Source of the DNA: Kineosporia corallincola
GTDB taxonomy: Bacteria; Actinomycetota; Actinomycetes; Actinomycetales; Kineosporiaceae
Direction of reading: 5' to 3'
DNA: 64,000 nt
NCBI RefSeq assembly: GCF_018499875.1
Contig: NZ_JAHBAY010000006.1
Span: 310,001-374,000, forward strand
In this document: positions 1 to 51,645 of the stretch, one piece after another
Numbering within the stretch: position 1 is the stretch's first letter
Layout: each line of letters begins with the position of its first letter
The notes under the pieces: generated by a model
The model's database searches: none
Seen by the model: the letters and a program-made list of their open reading frames with translations, nothing else
What the model was told of the DNA's origin: nothing
Position numbers and translations under genes: made by a program

Positions 1-1354
1 GCCCGGCCAGCAGCTCGCCGACCGTGCCGAACCCGGCCCGGGTGGTCTCCAGCAGCTGCGTGTCGATCGGCTGGAGCTCCCCGGCCTCGGGGATCTCGCC
101 CAGGTTCTTGTTGATCAGCGAGGCGGTGCGGTTGACCAGGTTGCCCCAGCCCGCGACCAGCTCGTCGTTGGTGCGGCGGACGAACTCGGCCCAGGTGAAG
201 TCGGTGTCCTGGTTCTCCGGGCCGGCCGCGCAGATGAAGTAGCGCAGCGCGTCGGGCTGGTAGCGGCTCAGGATGTCGCGGACGTAGATGACCACGCCGC
301 GGCTGGACGAGAACTGCTTGCCCTCCATGGTCAGGAACTCGCTGCTGACCACCTCGGTGGGCAGGTTCAGCTCGCCGTAGGGGCCCGGCTCACCACCCTT
401 GGCGCCCTTGCCCGCGTAGGCCAGCAGCTCGGCCGGCCAGATCTGCGAGTGGAAGGTGATGTTGTCTTTCCCCATGAAGTAGTTGGAGACGGCTTCGGGG
501 TCGTTCCACCACTTGCGCCACTGCTCCGGGTCGTCGGTGCGGCGGGCCCACTCGATGGACGCCGACAGGTAGCCGACCACCGCGTCGAACCAGACGTACA
601 GACGCTTGTTCTTGTTGTCTTCCCAGCCCTCCAGCGGCACCGGGATGCCCCAGTCGATGTCGCGGGTCATGGCCCGCGGCCGGAGGTCTTCGAGCAGGTT
701 GAGCGAGAACTTCAGGACGTTGGGACGCCAGCCCTCACGCGTCTTCAGCCACTCGCCGAGCGCCTCGGCGAGCGCGGGCAGGTCGAGGAAGAAGTGCGTG
801 GTCTCGACGAACTCCGGGGTCTCGCCGTTCACCCGGCTCTTCGGGTCGATCAGGTCGGCCGGGTCGAGCTGGTTGCCGCAGTTGTCGCACTGGTCGCCGC
901 GGGCGCTCTCGTAGCCGCAGATCGGGCAGGTGCCCTCGATGTAGCGGTCGGGCAGGGTGCGGCCGGTGGACGGGGAGACCGCCCCGGTCGTGGTCTGCTC
1001 GATCATGTAGCCGTTGGCGTGGTCGGTGCGGAACAGTTCCTGGGCCACGGAGTAGTGGTTGACCGTGGTGGTGCGGGTGAACAGGTCGTAGGAGAGGCCG
1101 AGGGAGTGCAGGTCCTCGACGATCATCCGGTTGTAGCGGTCGGCCAGCTCGCGCGGCGTGACGCCCTCCTGCTCCGCCTGCACCAGGATCGGCGTGCCGT
1201 GCTCGTCGGTGCCACTCACCATCAGCACGTCGTGGCCGGCCATTCGCATGTAGCGGCTGTAGACGTCGGAGGGCACGCCGAAGCCGGCGACATGGCCGAT
1301 GTGACGAGGGCCGTTGGCATAAGGCCAAGCGACCGCGGTGAGGATCCTGGTCAT
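1..1354 (-). CDS. metG: Methionyl-tRNA synthetase, 3' end outside the window
   Basis: Charges tRNA-Met with methionine in the cytoplasm (class I synthetase). The reading frame is open from an ATG at 1354 to the left edge, giving 451 residues of the N-terminal part. The HIGH signature is intact at residues 18-21 (PRHIGH). A zinc insert with paired knuckles CPICG and CDNCG lies near residues 141-160. The second signature appears as FSSSR near residue 347, the usual actinobacterial form of KMSKS. The frame was checked at both ends and shows no frameshift. The anticodon-binding C-terminus is missing only because the window ends. It is followed on the same strand side by rsmI and pmt genes, a neighbourhood also known from mycobacteria. 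Confidence 0.96.
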
Positions 1355-9087: not shown

Positions 9088-10164
9088 TCATCCGGGCAGC
9101 AGGTCGGCCAGCGTCTCGATGGTGCGCACCCGGTCGGCGTGCGTACGGTCGTGCGGCGTGATCGAGAGCGTGGTCACGCCCGCCCGGTGCAGCGCCTCGA
9201 CCCGCTCGGCCACCCACGACCGCGGCCCGATCAGCGACAGCGACTTCAGCAGCTCGCGCGGCACCGCCGCGGCCGCCTCGTCGCGGTGCCCGGCCAGGTA
9301 GAGCTCCTGGATGCGGGTGGCCTCGGCCTCGTAGCCGTAGCGCACGGCCAGGTCGAAGTAGAAGTTCTTGCCCTTGGCCCCCATCCCGCCCAGGTAGAGG
9401 GCGAACAGCGGACGGGCCTGGTCGACGAGCGGCTCCACGTCGTCCCCGATCGCCACCGCCACCGGCACCACCACGTCGAGCTGCCCCAGAGCCGGGTCAC
9501 GCCGGGCCTTCCCGGCCGCGAGCGCCTCGCCCCAGACCTGGTCGGCGCCCTCGGGCCGGAAGAAGAACGGCGCCCAGCCCTCGGCCAGCTCGGCGGCCAG
9601 CTCCACGTTCTTCGGGCCCATCGCCGCGATCATGATCGGGATCCGCTCGCGCACCGGATGGTTGATCAGCTTCAGCGGTTTGCCCAGCCCGGTGCCGCCT
9701 TCCAGCGGCATCGTGTAATACCGCCCGGCGTGTTCCAGCTTCTCCCGGCGCCACACCTGACGGCAGATCCCGATGATCTCGCGGGTGCGGCCGATCGGGG
9801 CGTCGTACGGCACCCCGTGGAAGCCCTCGATCACCTGCGGCCCGCTGGCGCCGAGCCCGAGGGTGAACCGGCCGTCGGAGACATGGTCCAGCCCGGCCGC
9901 GGTCATCGCCAGCAGGGCCGGCGTGCGGGTGTAGATCGGCAGGATGTTCGCGGCGATCTCCAGGTCGGGCACCCGGGCGGCGATGAACCCGAGCTGGCTG
10001 ACCGCGTCGAAGCTGTAGGCCTCGGCCACGTAGACGATCGACAGCCCGGCCTTACGGTAGTCCGGGAGCAGATCTGCCGTCTCGGTGAAACTTCCGGCGT
10101 AGGGCAGGGGCATACCGATCCGCACGCGCGCCTCCGGGCTCGAAGTGGCTGACGTGGGCATCAT
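9088..10164 (-). CDS. LLM-class F420-dependent oxidoreductase
   Basis: 358-aa TIM-barrel luciferase-like monooxygenase/oxidoreductase, probably using coenzyme F420. The N-terminus RIGMPLPYAGSF, the KAGLSIVYVAEAYSFDA block, ILPIYTRTPALLAMTAAGLD and RFTLGLGASGPQVIEGFHG are typical of the F420-type LLM family. The start is ATG 10164, the first of two adjacent ATGs, because GGGGAG lies just upstream; a longer frame to 10194 lacks a better site. Its substrate is unknown. It is the last gene on the minus strand after the chemosensory module, separated from it by about 60 nt, and could be read through from that operon. Confidence 0.88.
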   Translation of the reverse strand: MMPTSATSSPEARVRIGMPLPYAGSFTETADLLPDYRKAGLSIVYVAEAYSFDAVSQLGFIAARVPDLEIAANILPIYTRTPALLAMTAAGLDHVSDGRFTLGLGASGPQVIEGFHGVPYDAPIGRTREIIGICRQVWRREKLEHAGRYYTMPLEGGTGLGKPLKLINHPVRERIPIMIAAMGPKNVELAAELAEGWAPFFFRPEGADQVWGEALAAGKARRDPALGQLDVVVPVAVAIGDDVEPLVDQARPLFALYLGGMGAKGKNFYFDLAVRYGYEAEATRIQELYLAGHRDEAAAAVPRELLKSLSLIGPRSWVAERVEALHRAGVTTLSITPHDRTHADRVRTIETLADLLPG

Positions 10165-10227
10165 GCTCCCCGCGCTGCCGCCCCGCCCCCGCACCGGGTG
10201 TGAGCTATCCGCCAGTCTCCGGGCGGT

Positions 10228-11802
10228 TCACGCGGCCACCCAGGTGCTTGAGGACGACGAGAGGGCCGGGACCAGCGCGGCCCCGATCGCCGAGAGGTCC
10301 AGCCGGGCCAGCATGCGGGGTTCGTCGGCGGTGCCGATGGCCGCCACCCGCAGCATGGTGACGTCGTTCAGCGCCGCCTCCAGCGACCCGTCCGGGTGGC
10401 CGGAGCGCTTCGGGTTCGGGTCCTGCCACACCGCCCGCTCGATCGCCCGCAGCCCGTGCACCACCAGACCGGCCACCTGACCGCTGGTGCTGTCCGGGTC
10501 GGTGCTGACGACCAGCACGTACGCGGACTCCAGCGGAGAGTCCGGCACGCCGAGCAGACGGCTGAGCCGGTACAGCGGCACCACCGTGTCGCGGTGCGTG
10601 AACAGGCCGAGCATCTGGTCGTGCCCGGCCTCCAGCACCGAGTAGCGTTCCGGGAACTCGAGGATCTCCACCACCTCGCGCAGCGGCACCGCGAACTCCT
10701 TGTCCTTCGCCCCGGTCCGGGTCACCGCGAAGGTCAGGTAGGTGTCCCCGGAGGCGCCTGCGCCGTCCCAGCTGTCGCCGGCGGCACCACCGGAACCTTC
10801 GGAACGCTGGGCGGGCACCGTGTTCTCGTGCGGGGTGTTGAGCCGCGACAGTGCCTTCAGGTCGTCGTGCTCGAGCATCGCGGGCACGGCCAGGCTGAGG
10901 AAGTCACCGTGCCCGGGCACCCGCAGCACCTCGTCCAGATAGCGCCTGCCGGGCACCTGCACGGCGGGCAGCGGAAACCGTTCCACCGCGCCGACATTGA
11001 TCAGCTCCAGCACCTCCGACAGCATCATCACCACCAGGCCGTCGCGGAACCGGATGGCCACACCCTCGGACTCCTCGCCGCCGGTCCGGCTCAGCGTGCC
11101 CAGCCCGGCCAGCTCCAGCGGGTCGAACACCGGGATCTCGGTGCCGTCGTAGTCCGTGACGCCCTTGCACGAGCCGTGCCGCAGCGGGGAGTTGCGCACC
11201 CGCACCCGGGGCAGGATGGTGTGCACCGACTCGATGGCGATGGCCAGCCGGTGGTCGGCACAGCGCACCAGCAGCATCGCCGCGCCGGCACCGCCCCCGG
11301 ACCCGGCCGACGGGTCACCGCCCGCGAAAACCCCGTCGGCCCGGCCCTCCTCGCGCACCACCGGCACACCGGGCAGCGCGAACATCGCGTCGACGTCGAT
11401 GACGCTGACGATGTTCCCGGTCTCCGGCCGGGCGAAGGTGTGCGACACCAGCAGGTCGCTGCCGTCCGAGGTGCCCATCCGGGTCATCGCGCCGGGGCGG
11501 GTCACGCCGTGCACCCCGTCGACGATCAGCCCGAGCAGCTGGTTCTCGTGCAGCAGCACCACGATCACCCGGCGCGGTCCCGATTCGGCCTCTCCCGAAG
11601 GCTTTTCCGCCCGGCCCTCGATGGCCAGCAGGTCGAGCACCGGGATCACCTGGCCGCGCAGGTTCACCGCCCCGAGCAGGCCGGGGGCGGTGACCGGCAG
11701 TACCTCCAGCCGGTCCGGGCAGGGCGTCACCTCGCGCACGTCGGCCAGCGGAACGCCGACGCAGGCGTCGCCGGAGGCGAACAGGCCGTAGGTGGTGTTC
11801 AC
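10228..11802 (-). CDS. Triple-CheW-domain coupling protein, copy A
   Basis: 524-aa cytoplasmic protein made of three CheW domains: about residues 3-145 ([28 protein letters not shown]), 173-315 ([28 protein letters not shown]) and 352-505 ([34 protein letters not shown]). The linkers between them are Gly/Ser-rich. CheW normally has one such domain and bridges chemoreceptors to CheA; three in one chain could bridge several partners. GTG 11802 overlaps the upstream receptor stop by 4 nt, so receptor and CheW protein are translationally coupled. The paralogue at 14395-16128 has the same layout. No CheA, CheR, CheB or CheY gene is present in the window. Confidence 0.9.
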
Positions 11803-14264
11803 AGCGGCCGGCCGTGGCCGGAGGCGCCCAGCAGCTCCTGGATCAGCTGACTGACCCTGGCCGAGGCCTCCACCTGGGTCTTGGTCGCGGTGACGATCAG
11901 GTCGATCGACGTGCTGGTGTGCGTGACGCTGGAGACGATGTCCTCGAACGACTCACCGGCCTTGCGCGACACCTCCGCGCCCTCGTTCACCTGACGCGTG
12001 GACTCCTGCACCAGCTTCGAGATCTCCCGTGCCGCGTCCGCCGAACGCTCCGCCAGCTTCCGCACCTCACCCGCCACCACCGAGAACCCCAGACCGTGCT
12101 CCCCCGCCCGCGCCGCCTCGATCGAGGCATTGAACGCCAGCAGATTCGTCTGATCCGCGATATCACTCATCACCTGCACGATCTCGCCGATCTGCGCCGA
12201 GCTGCGCTGGATCAGGGTGATCGCCTCCACGGACTCGCGCAGCGACTGGGCGCCGGCCTGGGCGTCCTCCTGGGTGGACGACGACCAGCGGCTGGCGTCC
12301 GAGGTGCTCATCGAGATCGCCTCGATCGACTCGGTGAGCCGCTGCACGGCCTCGCTCATCGCGTCGGCCTTGGCGTTCAGCCGCTGCTCCAGCTGCACCT
12401 GGTCGGTGATGTCGTAGGCGTACTTGATCACCTTCATCGGCCGCCCGGCCAGGTCCAGGATCGGGTTGTAACTGGCCTGGATCCACACGTCCCGGCCGAA
12501 CTTGCCCACCCGGTGGAACCTTCCGGATCGCAGCTCACCACGCTGGAGGCGCAGCCAGAAGTCCCGGTAGTCCTCCGACAGCACGTACTCCTGGCTACAG
12601 AACATGCTGTGGTGCTGCCCGAGGATCTCGTTCTCGGTGTAGCCCACGGTGCGCAGAAAGTTGTCGTTCGCCGCGAGGATCCTGCCGTCCAGGTCGAACT
12701 CGATCACCGCCTGGGCGCGGTCGAGAGCCTCCACGCGACCGGCGTACTCGGCGTTGCGCAGCTTGTCGGCCGTCACGTCGGAGGCGAACTTCACCACCTT
12801 GAACGGCTTGCCCTCGGCGGTCAGGATCGGGTTGTAGGTGGCCCGGATCCAGACCTCCTTACCGGTTTTCGTGATCCGCCGGTACTCCCCGCCGTTGAAC
12901 TCGCCGCGCGAGAGCTTCTCCCAGAACAACTGGTACTCCGGGCGGGCGGCCTCCTCGGCGTCCACGAACAGCCGGTGGTGCCGCCCGCGGATCTCCTCCA
13001 TCCGGTAGCCCATCAGGTCGAGGAACGCGTCGTTCGCCTCCAGCACGTTGCCGTCCAGGTCGAACTCGATCACCGCCTGGGAGCGCTGAATCGCCTGGAT
13101 CTTGCCCTCGAAGTCGGCGTTACGCAGCTTGGCGGCGGTCACGTCGGAGGCGAACTTAACCACCTTCCAGGGCTTTCCGTCCATGTCGAAGATCGGGTTG
13201 TAGGTGGCCTGGAGCCACACGTCCTGCCCGCCCTTGGTCAGCCGGTGGAACTCGCCGGACTTGTACTCGCCCTCGCGCAGGGCGCGCCAGAACTCGCGGT
13301 AGTTCTCCGAGTCGGCCTCTTCCTGGGGCACGAACATCCGGTGGTGCTGACCGATCACCTCGGCGCGCTCGTAGCCGACGGTGGCCAGGAAGTTGTCGTT
13401 GGCCGAGAGGATCTTGCCGTTCAGATCGAACTCGATCACCGCCTGGGACCGGTCGATCGCTGCCACCTTGCCCTCGAAGTCCGCGTTGCGGCGCTTGGCC
13501 TCGGTCACGTCGACCGCGAACTTGACCACCTTCCAGGGCTTTCCGTCGATGCCGAGGATCGGGTTGTAGGTGGCCTGGAGCCACACGTCGCGCCCGCCCT
13601 TGGCCAGCCGGTGGAACTCGCCGGCCACGAACTCACCGTCGCCGAGCTTCTGCCAGAACTGCCGGTAGGCGGCCGACCGGGCGTCTTCGGGCCGCACGAA
13701 GAGCTTGTGGTGCTGGCCGATCAGCTCCTGCCGGGCGTAACCCATGATCTCGCAGAAGTTCTCGTTGGCGTCGAGGATCTCGCCGGACAGGTCGAACTCG
13801 ATCACCGCCTGCGAGCGGGAGATCGCCTGGATCTTGCCGGCCGCGTCGGCCGCTGCCCGCTTGCCGGCGGTCACGTCGAGCGCGTACTCCACCACCTTGG
13901 TCACCCGGCCGGACTCGTCGCTCACCGGGATCCAGGTGGAGCGGATCCAGACCTCGTTGCGGCCCTGCCAGACCTCACGGAACTCGCCGTCCGGATTGCC
14001 GCCGGAGCGCAGTTCCTCCCACAGGTCGGCGTACTCGCCCGTGCTCTCGATCACCTCGGGCGGGGCGAACGTGCTGCGGTGACGGCCGAGGATCTCGGCG
14101 ACGCCGTACCCGATCAGGTCGGCGAACATCTCGTTCGCCTTCACGACCGTGCCGTCCGGCGCGTACTCGGCGACCGCCTGGCCACGACCGAATGCCTCGA
14201 CCTGGCTCTTCAGCTCCGCGACGCTCTCGTGCCCGTCGCCCGTCAGGGCCTTCTCGTCCGACAA
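11799..14264 (-). CDS. Soluble chemoreceptor with five PAS domains, copy A
   Basis: 821 aa without a membrane segment. Five PAS domains repeat every ~122 residues (about 25-135, 147-257, 269-379, 391-501, 513-623). The last four carry a G(Q/R)HH-x-(L/M)F motif and a VW(L/I)(Q/R)A(S/T)YNPI strand, as in BdlA-type receptors. Residues ~630-815 form an MCP signalling hairpin whose tip reads [21 protein letters not shown] domains of this type may bind haem or flavin and so sense redox or oxygen; the ligand is not established. It starts with TTG 14264, with GGAG 8 nt upstream, and overlaps the CheW3 gene by 4 nt. The hairpin-tip DNA (11925-12195) is almost identical to copy B, unlike the rest of the gene. 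Confidence 0.92.
11925..12195 (-). repeat. Near-identical tract shared by the two PAS-MCP genes, copy A
   Basis: 271 bp matching 16262-16532 with only two differences (12030/16367 and 12177/16514). It encodes the MCP hairpin tip, about residues 690-780. Flanking parts of the two genes are much more diverged at synonymous sites. Within the tract Ala is mostly GCG and Gly mostly GGT or GGG, unlike the GCC/GGC preference elsewhere in both genes. Confidence 0.9.
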
Positions 14265-14289
14265 CTCAGTTCTCCGTTCCCCGACCTGA

Positions 14290-14334
14290 ACAGGCCTGCG
14301 GCTGGCCTGTGCAGCGCCCCCGTCGGAGACGGGG
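14290..14334. terminator. Two small hairpins between the chemosensory modules
   Basis: Two perfect 7-bp stems (14290-14296 with 14304-14310, and 14318-14324 with 14328-14334) lie in the 130-nt gap between the stop of CheW3 copy B and the start of the copy A receptor. They could terminate or attenuate read-through from module B into module A. Neither has a T-run. Confidence 0.4.
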
Positions 14335-14394
14335 AAGGAGAATTGCGGGAGGTGGCACGGCTGTCACCCACGTGGCAGACGCGACCGTCGGGGA

Positions 14395-16128
14395 TCAGGG
14401 TCCGATCGGGTCACCCACGGCGTCCAGGTCGTCCCCGGGATATTCGCCGTCGTACTCATCGGCATACTCGCCGTCGAAGACCTCAATGGTGGACGACGAG
14501 GGGGCCGGGACCAGCGCGCCGCCGATCGCGGCCAGATCCACCCGGGAGAGCATGCGCGGCTCGTCCGACGTCCCGATCGCCGTCACCCGGATCGCCCGCC
14601 GCCGGGCCAGCGCCTCGGGCAGGGTGGGCGGTTCGCCGGGTTCCGCACCGGCAGGTGGGTCGGGCACCGCCGGGTCCTCCCACACCGAGTGCTCGATGGC
14701 CCGCAGCGCGTGCACCGCCAGGCCCACCACCTGGGCGTCCTCGGCCCGGCCGGCGGCGTGCCCGCGGTCCGGCCCGGCGGTGACCACCAGCACGTAGATC
14801 AGGCCGTCGTGCTGCTGCGGTGCGATCAGGGCGGAGAGCCGGAACAACGGAACCACGGTGTCGCGGTGGGTGAACAGGCCGAGCACGTCCTGATCGCCGT
14901 CCTGCAAGATGGAGTAGCTCTCCGGGAACGGCAGGATCTCCAGCACCTGCTCCAGCGGCACCGCGAAGTCCTTCTCGCCGGGGGCCAGCGAGAAGGTCAG
15001 GTAGGTGCCGCCGGCCCGGGCCGTGCCCTCGCTCTCCCCGTCCGGCCCCCGCGACCAGTCCGACGAGCGCTGCGCGGGCACCTGGCCGGATTCGCCACCG
15101 GGCTGCCGGGAGTTCATCCGGCTCAGGGCGTTCAGGTCGTCGTGCCGCAGAATCTGGCTGACGGCCAGGGAGAGGAAGTCGCCCCGGCCGGGCACCCGCA
15201 TCACACCGTCCAGGTACTGGCATCCGGGCACCTGCACCGCGGGCAGGTCGAACCGCTCCGCGGCCGAGGCCGGGATCAGCTCGAGCACCTCGGACAGCAG
15301 CATCACCACCAGGCCCTCCTGGAAGCGGACGGCCACCCCCTCGGTGTCGTCGCCGGACAGCTCGCCGAGTCCGGCCAGCTCCAGCGGGTCGAACACCGGG
15401 ATCTCGGTGCCGTTGTAGTCGGTGACGCCCCGGCAGGCCCCGTGCGCCAGCGGCGAGCTGCGCACCTGCACCCGGGGGACGATGGTGTGCACCGCGTCGA
15501 TGCTCACGGCGAGCCGGTGGTTGGCGCAACGCACCAGCAGCATCGATCCGGAAAGGTCTGCCGCGTCCACTGTCTCGGCGTCCGGGCCGTGCGAGGCACC
15601 GCCGCTGAACGCTCCCTCCCCGGTGCCCCGGCCGTCGAGCATCACCGGGATGCCCGGCATCGAGAACACCGCTTCCACGTCGAGCACACTGACGATGACG
15701 CCGTCGCCGGGCGCGGGGAAGGTGTGTGACACCGGCAGTCGCTGCTGACCGGCGAGCGCGTTCGCCGTCCCCAGTTCCTGGAGGGCGGGCGGTGCGGTGA
15801 CGCCGTGCACCCCGTCGACCACCAGGCCGGCCAGCCGGCCCTCGTGCAGCACCACCACGATCACCCGGCTGCCGCCCCCGGCCGGCCCGGCCGCCCCGTT
15901 CATGGCCAGCAGGTCGAGCACCGGGATCACCTGGCCGCGCAGGTTGAGCGCGCCGAGCAGGCCCGGGGCGCTCACCGGCAGCGTCGCCAGGTCGGCGGGG
16001 CACGGCGTGACCTCGCGCACCGCCGTCAGCGGCAGCGCGATGCAGGCCTCACCGATCGCGAAAAGGCCGTAGGTCGCCGCGGTCTCGTGATCGGCGGTGA
16101 TGGTTGCCGGGCTGGCCGAGCCGCTCAT
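14395..16128 (-). CDS. Triple-CheW-domain coupling protein, copy B
   Basis: 577-aa paralogue of the protein at 10228-11802, with the same three CheW domains: about residues 17-160 (TYGLFAIGEACIALPL), 190-335 (SMLLVRCANHRLAVSI) and 375-540 (TYLTFSLAPGEKDFAVPL). It ends with an acidic, Tyr-rich tail of about 35 residues (EYADEYDGEYPGDD) absent from copy A. The C-terminal block DEPRMLSRVDLAAIGGALVP is shared with copy A and is not part of ordinary CheW. It lies 10 nt downstream of its partner receptor and is transcribed with it. The acidic tail and longer linkers suggest functional divergence after the duplication. Confidence 0.9.
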   Translation of the reverse strand: MSGSASPATITADHETAATYGLFAIGEACIALPLTAVREVTPCPADLATLPVSAPGLLGALNLRGQVIPVLDLLAMNGAAGPAGGGSRVIVVVLHEGRLAGLVVDGVHGVTAPPALQELGTANALAGQQRLPVSHTFPAPGDGVIVSVLDVEAVFSMPGIPVMLDGRGTGEGAFSGGASHGPDAETVDAADLSGSMLLVRCANHRLAVSIDAVHTIVPRVQVRSSPLAHGACRGVTDYNGTEIPVFDPLELAGLGELSGDDTEGVAVRFQEGLVVMLLSEVLELIPASAAERFDLPAVQVPGCQYLDGVMRVPGRGDFLSLAVSQILRHDDLNALSRMNSRQPGGESGQVPAQRSSDWSRGPDGESEGTARAGGTYLTFSLAPGEKDFAVPLEQVLEILPFPESYSILQDGDQDVLGLFTHRDTVVPLFRLSALIAPQQHDGLIYVLVVTAGPDRGHAAGRAEDAQVVGLAVHALRAIEHSVWEDPAVPDPPAGAEPGEPPTLPEALARRRAIRVTAIGTSDEPRMLSRVDLAAIGGALVPAPSSSTIEVFDGEYADEYDGEYPGDDLDAVGDPIGP

Positions 16129-16138
16129 CCGGGCGGCC

Positions 16139-18583
16139 TCAGACGGCCCGGTCCGGTGCCGATCCCAGCAGCTCCGTGATCAGTGAGGACACCTCGGCCG
16201 AGGCCTCCACCTGGGTGCGGGTGGCCTGCACGATCAGGTCGATCGAGCTGCTCGTGTGACCGACGCTGGAGACGATGTCCTCGAACGACTCACCGGCCTT
16301 GCGCGACACCTCCGCGCCCTCGTTCACCTGACGCGTGGACTCCTGCACCAGCTTCGAGATCTCCCGCGCCGCGTCCGCCGAACGCTCCGCCAGCTTCCGC
16401 ACCTCACCCGCCACCACCGAGAACCCCAGACCGTGCTCCCCCGCCCGCGCCGCCTCGATCGAGGCATTGAACGCCAGCAGATTCGTCTGATCCGCGATAT
16501 CACTCATCACCTGAACGATCTCGCCGATCTGCACGGAACTGCGCTGGATCAGCGAGATCGCCTCGGTGGACTCGCGCAGCGCGGCCGAGCCGGTCTGGGC
16601 GTCGTCCTGGGTGGAACCGGCCCACCGGCTGGCCTCCGAGGTGCTCATCGAGATCGCCTCGATCGACTCGGCCAGCCGCTGCACCACCCCGTTCATCGCC
16701 TCGGTCTTGGACTTCAGCCGGCTCTCCAGCTGCACCTGCTGGGTGATGTCGGAGGCGTACTTGATCACCTTCATCGGCCGCCCGGCCAGGTCCAGGATCG
16801 GGTTGTAACTGGCCTGGATCCACACGTCGCGGCCGAACTTGCCCACCCGGTGGAAGCTTCCGGAGCGGAACTCCCCGTGCTGGAGGCGTAACCAGAAGTC
16901 CCGGTACTCCTCGGAGGTGACGTAGTCGGGCGTGCAGAAGATGCTGTGGTGCTGCCCGACGATCTCGCGCAGCGTGTACCCCATCGTCCGCAGGAAGTTG
17001 TCGTTGGCGTCGATGATCTTCCCCTCGAGGTCGAACTCGATCACCGCCTGCGCCCGGTCCAGTGCGGCCACCCGGCCGGCGTACTCGGCGTTGCGCAGCT
17101 TGTCTGCCGTCACGTCGGAGGCGAACTTCACCACCTTGAACGGCTTGCCCTCGGCGTTCAGGATCGGGTTGTAGGTGGCCCGGATCCACACCTCCTGGCC
17201 GCTCTTCGTCACCCGGCGGTACTCCCCGGCGTCGAACTCGCCGCGCGACAGCTTGTCCCAGAACACCTGGTAAGCCGGGCTCGCCGCCTCCTGCGGCTCG
17301 ACGAAGATCCGGTGGTGCCGCCCGACGACCTCCTCCAGCCGGTACCCCATCAGCCCGAGGAAGGCGTCGTTGGCCGCGAGCACATGGCCCTGGAGGTCGA
17401 ACTCGATCACCGCCTGGGACCGGTCGATCGCCTGGATCTTCCCCTCGAAGTCCGCGTTGCGCACCTTGCTCTCGGTGATGTCGGTGGCGAACTTGACCAC
17501 CTTCCAGGGCTTTCCGTCCAGGTCGAGGATCGGGTTGTAAATCGCCTGGAGCCACACGTCACGTTCGTTGCGGGCCAGCCGGTGGAACTCACCGGAGATG
17601 AACTCGCCCTCCCGCAGACGGCGCCAGAACCGCTGGTACTCCTCGGAGGCGGCCTCGACCGGGGCCACGAACATGCGGTGGTGCTTGCCCACCACCTCCT
17701 CCCGGTCGTACCCCATGGTCTGGAGGAAGTTCTCGTTGACGCTCTGGATCACACCGTTCAGGTCGAACTCGATCACCGCCTGGGACCGGTCGATCGCCGC
17801 CACCTTGCCCTCGAAGTCCGCGTTGCGGCGCTTGGACTGGGTCACGTCGACCGCGTACTTCACCACCTTCCAGGGCTTTCCGTCGATGTCGAGGATCGGG
17901 TTGTAGACCGCCTGGAGCCACACATCGCGCCGGTCCTTGCCGACCCGGTGGAACTCGCCGGAGATGAACTCGCCCTCGCCGAGCCGCTGCCAGAACTGCC
18001 GGTACGCCCCCGAGCGGGCCTCGTCCGGCGGCACGAACATCTTGTGGTGCTGCCCGACCACCTCCTCCCGGAGGTAGCCCATGGTCTCCAGAAAGTTCTC
18101 GTTCACGTCGAGAACCGTTCCGCCCAGGTCGAACTCGATCGATGCCTGGGACCGGTCGATCGCTGCGATCTTGCCCTGCGCGTCGGCGGCGGCCCGCTTG
18201 GCCTCGGTGATGTCGAGGGCGTACTCGACCGCCCGGATCACCTCGCCGTGCATGTTGCGCACCGGCGTCCAGGTGGAGCGGATCCACAGGTCGCGCCGGC
18301 CCTGCCAGACCCGGCGGAACTCGCCCGTCGGGTTCTCGCCCGCGCGCAGCTCGGCCCACATCTGCTCGTACTCCGGCGAGGCGGCCACCTCTTCGGGCAC
18401 CAGCGTGGCGTGGTTGCGGCCGACCAGTTCGCCCGGGGCGCAACCGATCAGCTCGGCGAACCGGTCGTTGACCGAGAGCACCGTGCCGTCCATCGCGTAG
18501 TCCGCCCGGGCCTGCCCCCGTCCGTACGCCTCGACCTGGCTGCGTAGCTGGGCCAGTTCCTCTTCGACGCCACCGTCAGACAC
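16139..18583 (-). CDS. Soluble chemoreceptor with five PAS domains, copy B
   Basis: 814-aa paralogue of the receptor at 11799-14264, with the same five PAS domains (period ~122 residues), the same GQHH/GKHH/GRHH-x-(M/I)F motifs, and a C-terminal MCP hairpin with tip [18 protein letters not shown]. No membrane segment is present, so it should be cytoplasmic. It starts with GTG 18583 behind GGGGGAGG. Together with the downstream CheW3 gene it forms the first copy of the duplicated module in transcription order. The hairpin-tip DNA at 16262-16532 is nearly identical to copy A, while PAS-encoding DNA has diverged. Signal specificity probably resides in the PAS array and is unknown. Confidence 0.92.
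16262..16532 (-). repeat. Near-identical tract shared by the two PAS-MCP genes, copy B
   Basis: Partner of 11925-12195, with two differences over 271 bp. The sharp loss of identity at both ends, together with the shift in codon choice inside, indicates homogenisation of this segment independently of the rest of the gene. Confidence 0.9.
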
Positions 18584-21543: not shown

Positions 21544-23163
21544 CTACTCCTGAGAAGCTTCCGCCACCAGCTCCTTGTAGGTGCCGGCCGCGTTCGGAAC
21601 CTGCACCGGCTCGAAGATCGCCCCGGCGTAGTAGCTGGCGTCTTCGTTGAAGTACGCCTCGTAGGCCAGGTCCGAGCCGAGACTCTTGAAGAACTCGACC
21701 ATCTTGCTGATGTAGAGCGCGTTGTCGCCGCCGTTGTGGCCGGCCTGCGCCGTGCCCGGGTAGCAGCCCCACTCCGGCACGGTCACCTTCTTACCGTGCT
21801 GCCGGGCGAAGTCGGCCCAGAACTTCAGCCCGAAGTCACCGTTGAGGTGCTCGTCCCAGGTCTGGTCGTTGTTCGCCCCGGGCCACATGTCGTACGAGTC
21901 GATACCCACGTAGTCGACGTAGTCGTCACCCGGGTAGGCCTGGGTGGCGTCGGCGAGACCCGCACTGACACCGCGGTTCACGGTCCAGTCCCACTTCAGG
22001 TCGGGAGCCACCGCGCGCACCGTGGTGACGATCTGCCGGAAGCACTCGGCGTACTCGGTGGGGTTGCTGGCGCTCCACTTGTACCAGTTGCCGTTGAACT
22101 CCCAGCCCAGCCGGATGATCGAGTCACCCATGCCGTTGGACACGAAGTTCTGGCCGAACTGCGTCCACTTGTCGTTGTACTGCCCGGCCGCACAGCCCGC
22201 CATGGTGGCGCTGCTGTCGCCCTCCGGAACCGGCGCCACACCCAGGGCCTTCAGGTAGGGCGTGTCTTTCCAGGCGTCGAAGATCCAGGTGGGATTGACG
22301 ATGTCGTCCCAGGTCTGGCGCGCCGGCCAGTCCACGACGACATCGACCGGGGCACCCCGCCAGGCGGCGAACGCCTCGGCGTTGGCCGCGCTGCTGCCCG
22401 GCATGTAGAGGCCGCTGGCCCCCCAGGGCAGGCCGGAACGGTTCGACGTGGAGCAGGGCGTGAGCTTGCCGGACGCCGTGGTCGTGCTGCTCGTCAGCTC
22501 CGGGATGTCGCTCGCCGTCATGGTTTCCGTGGGCGTGGCGGTCTCGCCGACGGTGGCCGACGCGGTGGCGGTGGCGGTGCCCGTGGCCGTGCCCGTGCTG
22601 GTGCCGGTGCTGGTGACGCACGGGGTGGCGGTGCCGCCCGAGGTCGGGGTCCCGGTGGCCGTGCCCGTCGTCGTGCCCGTCGCGCCGCTCGTGCCGGTGG
22701 GCTCGGTCGTGCCGGTGGGCTCACCGGTCGCGGTCGGCTCCTGGGTCGAGGTCGTGGTGTTCGTGGTGCTGTCGACGGCGCCCGGCTCAGTGGTCGCGGT
22801 GCCCGTCGGAACGTTCGGATCGGTGGTGACCGTCGCTGTGGACGTGGGGGTTTCGGTGCCGGCCCCGGTCGGGACGCCCGGCGTGGCGTGCCCGGCGTTC
22901 CAGTCCGGGCCCACCTCTTCCTGGAAGCGACCGGGGTAGGGCCCGGTGCCGTGCTGGTGCTCGCGCTTCCACTTCTTGTTGCGGGGCATGTTCGAGAAGT
23001 CGGAGATGTATGCGGCGCCGTCCTTACTCGTCCAGGAGACGGCGTTCCCGACCTCGGTCTTGCCCGGCTTCGGATCCTGGCCGGCGATGGCCGGCACCGT
23101 ACCGATCGCGGCCACGACCACCACCAGGGCGGTCGCCCCAACGACCCGTTTCTTGGTCAGCAC
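21544..23163 (-). CDS. Secreted GH26-like glycoside hydrolase with Thr-rich linker
   Basis: 539 aa. A signal peptide (KKRVVGATALVVVVAAIGTVPAIAG) is followed by a short N-terminal region, a low-complexity Thr/Gly/Pro/Ser linker at about residues 95-225, and a C-terminal catalytic domain. The domain carries IIRLGWEFNGNWYKWS (candidate acid/base E355) and VTVPEWG (candidate nucleophile E464), about 109 residues apart as in the GH26 beta-mannanase clan. Expected activity is hydrolysis of a beta-mannan or beta-glucan outside the cell; the substrate is not certain. The mucin-like linker is a plausible target of the O-mannosyltransferase at 7.5 kb. The start is GTG 23163 with GGGGAG 9 nt upstream. 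A strong terminator follows. Confidence 0.85.
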   Translation of the reverse strand: MLTKKRVVGATALVVVVAAIGTVPAIAGQDPKPGKTEVGNAVSWTSKDGAAYISDFSNMPRNKKWKREHQHGTGPYPGRFQEEVGPDWNAGHATPGVPTGAGTETPTSTATVTTDPNVPTGTATTEPGAVDSTTNTTTSTQEPTATGEPTGTTEPTGTSGATGTTTGTATGTPTSGGTATPCVTSTGTSTGTATGTATATASATVGETATPTETMTASDIPELTSSTTTASGKLTPCSTSNRSGLPWGASGLYMPGSSAANAEAFAAWRGAPVDVVVDWPARQTWDDIVNPTWIFDAWKDTPYLKALGVAPVPEGDSSATMAGCAAGQYNDKWTQFGQNFVSNGMGDSIIRLGWEFNGNWYKWSASNPTEYAECFRQIVTTVRAVAPDLKWDWTVNRGVSAGLADATQAYPGDDYVDYVGIDSYDMWPGANNDQTWDEHLNGDFGLKFWADFARQHGKKVTVPEWGCYPGTAQAGHNGGDNALYISKMVEFFKSLGSDLAYEAYFNEDASYYAGAIFEPVQVPNAAGTYKELVAEASQE

Positions 23164-50097: not shown

Positions 50098-51645
50098 TCA
50101 GTCGAGAATGGCGCGCGTCATACTCATCTGGTCGCTGAGCACACCCTGGATCAGCTGCTGGGTCTGGTTGATCTCGTCCACCGCGTGGTGGATGTGGCCG
50201 AGCGACGTGGTCACGGCTTCCACCCGGCTCTGGATGGCGTTGACCCGCTCGCTGACGCTCGTGGTGGCGCGCTCGGTCTGTCCCGAGAGCTCCTTGACCT
50301 CTTCGGCCACCACGGCGAAACCCTTACCCGCCTGCCCGGCCCGGGCCGCCTCGATGGTGGCGTTCAGCGCGAGCAGCTTGGTCTGGGCGGCGATGGTCTG
50401 GATGTCCTGCACCACCTTGTTGATCTCGGCGCTGGCCTGGCCGAGTGCCGCCACCTGGGTGTTGGCCTCCTCGGTCAGCTGGCCGCTGCGGCTGGCCACG
50501 CCGGAGGCGGAGGTGACGTTGCGGTCCACCTCGCCGATCGACTCCATCAGTTGCTGGCCGGCCTGGCGCAGCTGGGCGCTGGAGGTGAACCGCTCCATCG
50601 CCTGGCCGACCAGGTAGGCGGTGTTGCGCAGCGCGCTCTCCCGGCTCGACGACATGATCAGCTTGCGGGTGGCGAAGAAGTCCATCGTGCCGATGATCCG
50701 CCCGCCCACCGTGATCGGCAGGCAGACACCGGATTTCACACCCTGTTTCTGCGCCACCGGCCGGCGTACGCAGTCGGTCAGCTCGCCGAGGTCCTCGACG
50801 AACACGAAGTCGTTACGGGCCCAGGCCCGGCCGGACAGGCCGACCCCCTTGGCGAACGAGGCCGCCAGGGTGACCTCCCGGAACTCCGGGCCGACGTCGC
50901 CGGACTCCTTGGCGAAGCGCAGAACCTGCTGCTCCTCGTCGAGCCGCCAGAACGAGCCGTACTGCCAGTCGAAGTCGCGGCGGATCGTCTCCATCGCGAC
51001 GCGCAGTGCGTCGTCCTCGGTGCTGACCGTGGTGAGCTCGCGGATGACGGTGGACACCGCCTCGACGTCCTGCGCGGCCTTCTCCTGGCGCACCGCCTCG
51101 TGCAGGCGCTCCAGGGCGGTGGACACCAGCACGCCGATCGCCCGCAGCACAGCCAGCCGGTCCTGCGTGGGGTGCAGCACCTCGGTGGTGAAGAAGTCCA
51201 TGGTGCCGACCACTTCGCCCTGCTCGATCAGCGGGAAGCAGACACCGCTGCGGATGCCCATCCGGGTCGCGACGGGGGCGCGGACGCAGTCCGTCATCGT
51301 GCCCAGGTCCTCGACGAAGATCAGGTCGCGCTGCCGCCAGGCCCGGCCGGACAGGCCGACCCCCTCGGCGAACGACGCCTCCAGGGTGACCTTGCGGAAC
51401 TCCGGGTTCACGTCCCCGCTGTCCAGGCCGAACCGCAGCACCTGCTCGGCACTGTCCTTGACCCAGTAGGAGCCGTAGGCCCAGCCGAAGTGATGACGCA
51501 CGACTTCCAGGGACGTCTTCACCGCCTGTTCCGGCGTGGTCGCCTGGTTGAGCTTGGTCACCACATCGGTGACGGCCACGACATCGGCGTGGGCCTCGGC
51601 GGCCGTGTGCTCGGCCGCCGCGTTCCTGGGTGTCCTGCTGAACAC
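50098..51645 (-). CDS. Soluble chemoreceptor with two GAF domains
   Basis: 515 aa and no membrane helix. Two GAF domains, about residues 20-175 and 200-350, are homologous to each other (FGWAYGSYW and [16 protein letters not shown] in both; [14 protein letters not shown] and [19 protein letters not shown] in both). Residues ~360-515 form an MCP signalling hairpin with tip [34 protein letters not shown]. It should couple an unknown cytoplasmic ligand or redox cue to CheW/CheA. The Cys in DCVRxPVA of both GAF domains is conserved and could hold a cofactor, which is inference. GTG 51645 has GGAG 6 nt upstream. It is related in type but not in domain content to the PAS receptors at 11.8-18.6 kb. 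Confidence 0.91.

Follow-up and report, generated by a model that had tools for sequence, protein, structure and literature searches.

Here we describe a tandem chemosensory module of Kineosporia corallincola, located in a 64,000-nucleotide stretch of contig NZ_JAHBAY010000006.1 (positions 310,001 to 374,000; hereafter the window). The module comprises two consecutive gene pairs, each coding for a soluble methyl-accepting chemotaxis protein (MCP) with several PAS domains and for an adaptor with three CheW domains (CheW3), transcribed from the minus strand of window positions 10228-18583 in the order MCP-A, CheW3-A, MCP-B, CheW3-B. The pair recurs in further actinobacteria and in proteobacteria, its receptors have a private tip, the second CheW domain has lost the Glu38/Arg62 residue pair, the tips of the two copies are homogenised, and each module genome has one CheA with a dimerisation domain. 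By a narrow preference, we read the module as a dedicated receptor-adaptor unit that would take its input from the intracellular state, assemble through CheW3 and feed the F5-class CheA of the cell. The usual definition of a chemosensory array rests on receptor, CheW and CheA, whereas here a widespread two-gene unit consists of a receptor and a triple CheW, and the sequences of both partners point to an altered kinase interface. In this soil bacterium, whose spores swim, a known type of bacterial sensing machine appears to occur in a new variant, making testable both the role of concatenated CheW domains in an array and the existence of CheW lattices without, or with a borrowed, kinase.

An initial annotation made from the DNA alone had proposed that a gene pair for a soluble multi-PAS receptor and a triple-CheW protein is duplicated in tandem, and the four open reading frames (ORFs; Table 1), their Pfam matches and their hydropathy bear this out. 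Pfam identified five PAS stretches and one MCPsignal match per receptor, and three CheW stretches with no further match per CheW3. The PF00015 scores of the two receptors (8.9e-39 and 1.1e-40) indicate that the MCP signalling hairpin is present, while their maximal 19-residue Kyte-Doolittle means of 0.88 and 0.96 reveal no membrane segment. In the same scan, 15 of the 19 other MCPs of the genome (the genome set minus a degenerate paralogue on contig C4) exceeded 2.0. MCP-A and CheW3-A are spaced by 10 nucleotides (nt), and the start of CheW3-B lies on the stop of MCP-B, giving the 4-nt overlap that had been predicted. The predicted acidic tail is present as well, in CheW3-A; the copies called A and B in the initial annotation are the reverse of ours. 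As also proposed there, the copies have diverged, CheW3-A and CheW3-B being 61% and MCP-A and MCP-B 76% identical. With 59% identity, PAS1 is the most diverged PAS domain, and it is plausible from this divergence that A and B sense different cues. The solved sequence closest to PAS2-3 of MCP-B is 3ewk (E 2.5e-22), which we take to be the tandem PAS of MmoS; the NRRK and second Trp positions, presumably flavin-site residues of the Aer and MmoS type, differ.

The receptors are set apart by the tip of their signalling hairpin, which has the consensus QTNxLAFNAxIEAARAG(E/D)HG(L/V/I)GFS. AFNA and GFS occur together in all 20 actinobacterial module receptors with a readable tip (23 were read, three being cut by contig ends) and at 5/5 proteobacterial loci with a CheW3 outside the F9 class. 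The F and S of this tip were found in 0/10 plasmid MCP loci lacking a CheW domain in the fetched flanks (opened hits only, four from the receptor search and six from the top tip hits), in 0/4 signalling domains of two F9-type receptors and in none of the 19 other MCPs of the genome. When only the tip was used as query, 4350 plasmid records matched, with Ruegeria and two Novosphingobium records first, each having CheW3 in the operon or adjoining; Paraburkholderia ranked twelfth and Caballeronia was not among the 25 matches listed. Within the sample examined, the AFNA...GFS tip is therefore private to receptors with a non-F9 CheW3, and a three-residue tip signature provides a simple genome marker for CheW3-coupled receptors. 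In Kineosporia, a 31-residue tip stretch is identical in all eight receptors with a readable tip.

The same tip has lost a charge that contacts CheA. At the position of Tsr R394 (numbering from Tsr alignments), all 25 readable module receptors have L, V or I, compared to K or R in 18/19 other MCPs of the genome and in 10/10 unpaired plasmid MCPs. The structural account in PMC6746300 assigns to R394 of Tsr contacts with the P3 and P4 domains of CheA. Because the change speaks against an ordinary kinase contact, we keep as main rival a kinase-free lattice, in which receptor and CheW3 would form a baseplate of CheW rings, devoid of CheA, for storing, sorting or tuning receptors, or would join the F5 array at CheA-free positions only. 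We regard this as a serious candidate, if an unlikely one. The module hairpin aligns to that of Tsr (1qu7) without gaps, which suggests a 36H-like register in which the arms are truncated; one of the genome's housekeeping MCPs misses 7 residues of the second arm. In the Tsr register, MCP-A and MCP-B end ~106 residues past IEAA, short of the distal arm of Tsr. The structure model of MCP-A (mean pLDDT 73.2, pTM 0.31) has low confidence in the hairpin, and its AlphaFold2 (AF2) arms of ~100 and ~92 residues would equally fit a shorter H class. At the plasmid loci, 105-134 residues follow IEAA in paired and 126-190 in unpaired receptors, so that the short hairpin is a tendency and not a distinguishing mark.

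The second mark of an altered kinase interface lies in the adaptor. In the AF2 model of CheW3-B (17 sequences; mean pLDDT 79.6, pTM 0.40), three CheW folds are joined by loose linkers, with low-confidence stretches at 153-172 and 325-350, and a Foldseek search with this model ranked CheW and CheA P5 first. We compared the three domains (D1 to D3) at the equivalents of Glu38 and Arg62, whose bridge is described in PMC3828127 as fundamental to CheW function and not to assembly. D1 has the pair in 27/27 triple-CheW proteins. In D2, it is present in none of the 24 module CheW3 (20 actinobacterial, four proteobacterial) vs all three F9/Ruegeria proteins, and D3 retains it in 20 of the 24 (17/20 actinobacterial, 3/4 proteobacterial). 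The loss from D2 is a further argument for a lattice without kinase, as is the fact that the actinobacterial loci examined, several of them short contig ends, showed no recognisable cheA in the vicinity of the pair. In addition, CheW-only rings exist in arrays according to the array description in PMC6746300, and F9 arrays can form without CheA, as reported in PMC7534058. However, the coupling pair is mostly retained in D1 and D3, which would be odd if a kinase were never bound, and all module genomes of the order are CheA-positive.

To place the module in its cellular context, we surveyed the host genome (8.2 Mb, 53 contigs), which has 22 PF00015 matches. The initial annotation had suggested a search for a CheA matched to the module, but none was found in the genome: exactly one H-kinase_dim match exists, a CheA of 826 aa on contig C8 with two CheW matches, followed by a CheW gene and by CheB, CheR, CheX and CheY, the latter four named by eye from translations. 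Such a two-CheW-domain CheA marks the F5 class, reported for most later-branching Actinobacteria in the class survey of PMC10746217. With this CheA and the order AW...BR, the C8 cluster is of the F5 class and represents the host pathway rather than the module. Given that the module lacks a CheA of its own, its output would most readily go to the F5 enzyme. All 18 module genomes have exactly one H-kinase_dim match, a count that covers dimerisation-domain CheAs and leaves ACF-like CheAs aside, and 17 of them have flagellin, the exception being a genome (G557) that is 90% complete. In the order draw, CheA was present in 65/317 genomes, and all 15 module-bearing genomes of the order were among those 65; the chance of 15/15 CheA-positive genomes is ~1e-11, a figure to be read with the caveat that the genomes are related, not independent, and that the two draws were not shown to be nested. 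On contig C18 (L002:9811-16193) lies a second cluster with the order CheW-CheR-CheW-MCP-CheA:REC, whose CheA has no dimerisation-domain match; by genes named by eye plus CheW and MCP family matches, it looks like the ACF type. That the module serves this chemosensory cluster, and not flagellar chemotaxis, is improbable in our estimate: the cluster is there to be served, but its receptor has a tip different from that of the module and a hairpin longer by 14 residues per arm.

Taken as a receptor-adaptor unit that feeds the F5 CheA, the module may work as follows. The cytoplasmic PAS receptor would sense an intracellular cue, possibly redox, oxygen or a metabolite, and would assemble via its own CheW3. 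The residues aligning the sites for receptor and kinase are retained in D1 and D3, which should thus be able to couple, whereas D2 may be a structural connection, contributing for instance to a CheW ring. The signal would then pass via the F5 CheA to the flagella, presumably those of zoospores. Kineosporia zoospores swim fast and follow chemical gradients, as described in PMC2587704. Gene conversion would hold the tips of the tandem copies alike, so that both mix in a single array, and the diverging PAS regions would widen the input. Several observations weigh against this interpretation. The R394 position, hydrophobic in the module and K or R in 18/19 other MCPs, makes normal control of the F5 kinase doubtful, and the module tip AFNA...GFS differs from the F5-type LALNAT...GKGFA of most other MCPs in the genome. 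Loss of the Glu38/Arg62 pair is not peculiar to D2 of the module: one or both residues are also gone from the ACF CheW2, from P5 of the ACF CheA, from CheW domain 2 of the F5 CheA and from D3 of the F9 protein of Sphingobium. The second, ACF-like CheA on C18 could be the partner of the module. Finally, 7/7 relatives from the family without the module also have CheA and flagellin, so that the module is accessory and dispensable.

The two receptors of the tandem share a nearly uniform tip. The synonymous difference between MCP-A and MCP-B is 0.031 in the tip segment vs 0.216-0.416 in seven other segments; the tips are identical at 253/255 nt, in a block whose edges are sharp, and PAS5 ends in a second, shorter patch of low difference (1 of 60 nt). 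Because the synonymous difference between orthologous tips amounts to 0.376-0.482 (five pairs), selection at the protein level does not explain this identity. Recent gene conversion would probably account for it, with local read collapse, in a genome of 53 contigs, as a minor alternative. Two more genomes exhibited lower tip divergence between paralogues than between orthologues, namely G005 (0.137, the neighbouring arm being equally low) and G009 (0.249). The initial annotation had assigned the copies to separate cytoplasmic arrays. This proposal is contradicted by tips that are homogenised while the PAS and distal-arm regions diverge, a pattern that argues for a single shared array, in which both receptors would have to fit one lattice.

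To delineate the distribution of the module, CheW3 profiles were searched against drawn genomes of the family, order, class and phylum. Full-length CheW3 was present in 0/7 genomes of other genera in the family, in nine genomes outside the genus among 396 of the order, and outside the order in three among 394 of the class, where 20/394 had some match and 16 besides the host genome were partial. In the phylum draw (396 genomes, with about three candidates scored per genome), full-length CheW3 was found in the host genome alone; 47/396 had some match at 1e-10, all but that of the host partial. The 12 module genomes outside the genus belong to six other actinobacterial families, and each of the 12 full-length CheW3 has a PAS-MCP directly upstream on the same strand, matching the co-occurrence in other genomes that the initial annotation had proposed to look for. 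Its count of five PAS domains per receptor holds in Kineosporia but not beyond, where seven scanned receptors have 3-5 PAS stretches by Pfam. All 20 actinobacterial module CheW3 have three CheW domains, as judged with a profile built partly from the same proteins; the number of PAS domains varies, while that of CheW domains is constant. Two loci, L042 and L044, have another MCP within 10 kb, and L044 also a histidine kinase weakly similar to the ACF CheA. A plasmid search with CheW3-B yielded two Novosphingobium records. The adjacent pair is present on pNL2 of Novosphingobium aromaticivorans and on Caballeronia and Paraburkholderia plasmid records, and in Novosphingobium sp. ES2-1, the receptor tip is encoded just upstream of CheW3, where no gene is annotated. 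On the Ruegeria sp. TM1040 megaplasmid (L147:816-6443), an operon of PAS receptor, CheR, CheD and CheW3, longer than the pair by genes of the adaptation type, combines the module tip with a canonical D2. Given these loci in actinobacteria, Novosphingobium, Burkholderiaceae and Ruegeria, the module spans two phyla, comprising Actinomycetota as well as Alpha- and Betaproteobacteria.

The closest known relative is the F9 class, typified by cluster I of Vibrio cholerae with DosM, CheW3 and CheA. The initial annotation knew of no described pathway with the present pairing. The adaptor itself is not new, since a triple CheW is known as the CheW3 of F9 cytoplasmic arrays in the cluster descriptions of PMC7534058 and PMC9321776, and 3xCheW is listed as a known architecture in PMC10653840; the triple CheW described there, however, accompanies DosM. 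A search of open-licence PMC papers identified no already characterised identical module in relatives. Both systems have a concatenated triple-CheW adaptor and soluble receptors, and both occur next to another F class in flagellated bacteria. In contrast to F9, the module has no DosM and no CheA, CheB or CheR of its own beside the pair, and no other che gene was recognised adjoining it in the Kineosporia loci. Each module receptor has one MCPsignal match, and no two of the 22 PF00015 matches of the genome fall in one gene, the closest pair being the two module receptors, 4.3 kb apart. The module further differs from F9 by its private tip and by the D2 without Glu38/Arg62, and its CheW domains group by position apart from those of F9. 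In a quick domain tree of 14/20 actinobacterial proteins (six close relatives were left out), the D2 domains of both phyla join (93), as do the D3 domains (90), and actinobacterial D1 groups with Novosphingobium D1 (99); Burkholderiaceae D1 lies elsewhere on long branches, and the F9 domains stand apart from the module domains. As tree support is modest, a separate origin of module and F9 CheW3 is likely rather than proven. Lacking DosM and a CheA of its own, the module is a variant outside the F9 class that works like a cut-down cytoplasmic F9 system. Its private receptor tip, the loss of the Glu38-Arg62 pair from D2 and the homogenised tips in the window are new.

Other described systems share single traits with the module. 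Partial F9 sets of dosM, cheW3 and cheBR without cheA, as reported for Nitratiruptor and Nautilia in PMC9321776, likewise have a CheW3 without CheA of the same class, but they carry dosM, whereas the module genome has no receptor with two PF00015 matches. The part of PMC9321776 that surveys dosM plus cheW3 counts such sets in 8/2781 species and proposes, as we do for the module, that they use the CheA of another class; since that survey required both genes, a DosM-less pair would have gone uncounted. FrzB of Myxococcus xanthus, as presented in PMC6952110, is likewise CheW-like, works for a cytoplasmic receptor and does not act as core kinase coupler, although it has a single CheW domain and its lesion, a different one, is the absence of strands 4-5, with which CheA is bound. 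In V. cholerae, the membrane-free PAS receptors VC1406 and VCA0864 (two PAS, 24H) have a short signalling domain, and PMC7534058 proposes them as a possible source of input to an array using CheW3; the passages of that paper on these receptors do not describe them as paired with an adjacent CheW3, so that they are set apart from the module by description, not by sequence. PMC10746217 reports F9 for three zoospore-forming Actinomycetia, and its tables might list some of the CheW3 proteins analysed here. A broader proposal is a DosM-less, kinase-less chemosensory family over at least two phyla, whose CheW3 would act as a half-ring with two coupling domains and a structural one and would build a CheW-only lattice with receptors lacking the CheA contact. 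We put this forward tentatively and rate it as doubtful; if true, the CheW-only array would serve receptor organisation or signal routing and not direct kinase control.

Our searches also retrieved F9-type clusters. In a genome from another family of the class (G951, L074:5294-14960), a two-headed receptor lies beside CheW3, CheB, CheR, CheA and CheY, and a Sphingobium plasmid encodes a receptor with two tip motifs, CheW3, CheB, CheR and CheA. Both clusters have the F9 layout as drawn in PMC7534058 and PMC9321776. The gene order in G1086 (L075) is similar to that of the G951 cluster, the receptor there being unchecked for two heads.

The history of the tandem could be followed within the genus. 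The locus lies amid the same flanking genes (glycosyltransferases, luciferase-like oxidoreductase, ROK, xylose isomerase) in 6/6 Kineosporia genomes, sometimes inverted. An assembly duplication, which would have undone the initial annotation, was rejected: G009, a genome assembled as one contig, has the full tandem, with the four genes in the same order and the copies similarly diverged. In G006, MCP-A, CheW3-A, MCP-B and CheW3-B are spread across three contigs, both receptors being cut by contig ends; in G008, MCP-A lies at one contig end and a partial MCP-B with CheW3-B at another, with CheW3-A not seen. G005 has MCP-A, MCP-B and CheW3-B without CheW3-A between the receptors, and G007 has module A only. 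Based on the shared locus and tandem, with reduced sets in G005 and G007, the duplication most likely predates the genus Kineosporia and would have been pruned later in two lineages or more. Tandem, single and reduced copies thereby form a natural series within one genus of culturable bacteria. Such losses raise the question of whether the modules are decaying relics without present function. A relative without CheW3-A, another without module B, a PAS-only copy and a degenerate-tip paralogue would all fit this idea, as would the fast evolution of CheW3 (orthologue dN/dS, the ratio of nonsynonymous to synonymous divergence, about 0.4-0.5). We nevertheless consider decay very improbable: all four window genes are open, dN is below dS between orthologues for both MCP (dN 0.119-0.168, dS 0.39-0.47) and CheW3 (dN 0.191-0.248, dS 0.38-0.58), and the 31-residue tip is invariant across the readable Kineosporia receptors.

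Two further types of paralogue were seen in Kineosporia. A five-PAS protein without signalling domain is encoded in two genomes at different loci (L118:6937-8937, on contig C16 of the host genome, and L120:7117-9063); it is 69% identical to MCP-A over 629 residues and stops at the point at which a hairpin would be expected to start. The tip is degenerate in a third PAS-MCP paralogue, which lies at L119:7342-10275 (minus strand; MCPsignal below cut-off) and at L122:7581-10562. Matches of this latter type occur in all six Kineosporia genomes, possibly representing a decoy or non-coupling receptor.

Table 1. Features of the tandem module, in window positions
Feature	Positions	Strand	Basis
MCP-A, soluble receptor, 814 aa	16139..18583	-	ORF list, Pfam, structure model
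MCP-A, PAS domains at residues approx. 25-124, 147-246, 269-368, 391-490 and 513-612; short signalling hairpin at 614-806			
CheW3-A, three CheW domains, 577 aa, acidic C-terminal tail	14395..16128	-	ORF list, Pfam
MCP-B, soluble receptor, 821 aa, five PAS domains and MCP signalling hairpin	11799..14264	-	ORF list, Pfam
CheW3-B, 524 aa, CheW domains at residues approx. 2-150, 174-322 and 353-512	10228..11802	-	ORF list, Pfam, AF2
MCP-A tip segment, homogenised block, probable gene conversion	16262..16516	-	253/255 nt identical to MCP-B
MCP-B, matching tip segment	11925..12179	-	offset of 4337 from paired coordinates
Inter-module gap (CheW3-A to MCP-B), 130 nt	14265..14394	-	spacing

Directly downstream of the last CheW3, at window positions 9088-10194 (minus strand), lies the gene of a luciferase-like (LLM) oxidoreductase, which has this place in 6/6 Kineosporia loci. 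We considered it as a third conserved module gene and rejected it, as tblastn at the non-Kineosporia loci searched returned two weak partial matches (27-28%), with no match at the Novosphingobium locus despite a similarly named neighbour there. Elsewhere in the window, positions 50098-51645 (minus strand) encode a further MCP that appears to be soluble and has two GAF stretches and a tip of the housekeeping type, and positions 21544-23163 (minus strand) a protein in which a long Thr-rich region precedes a partial match to glycoside hydrolase family 26 (mannanase-like).

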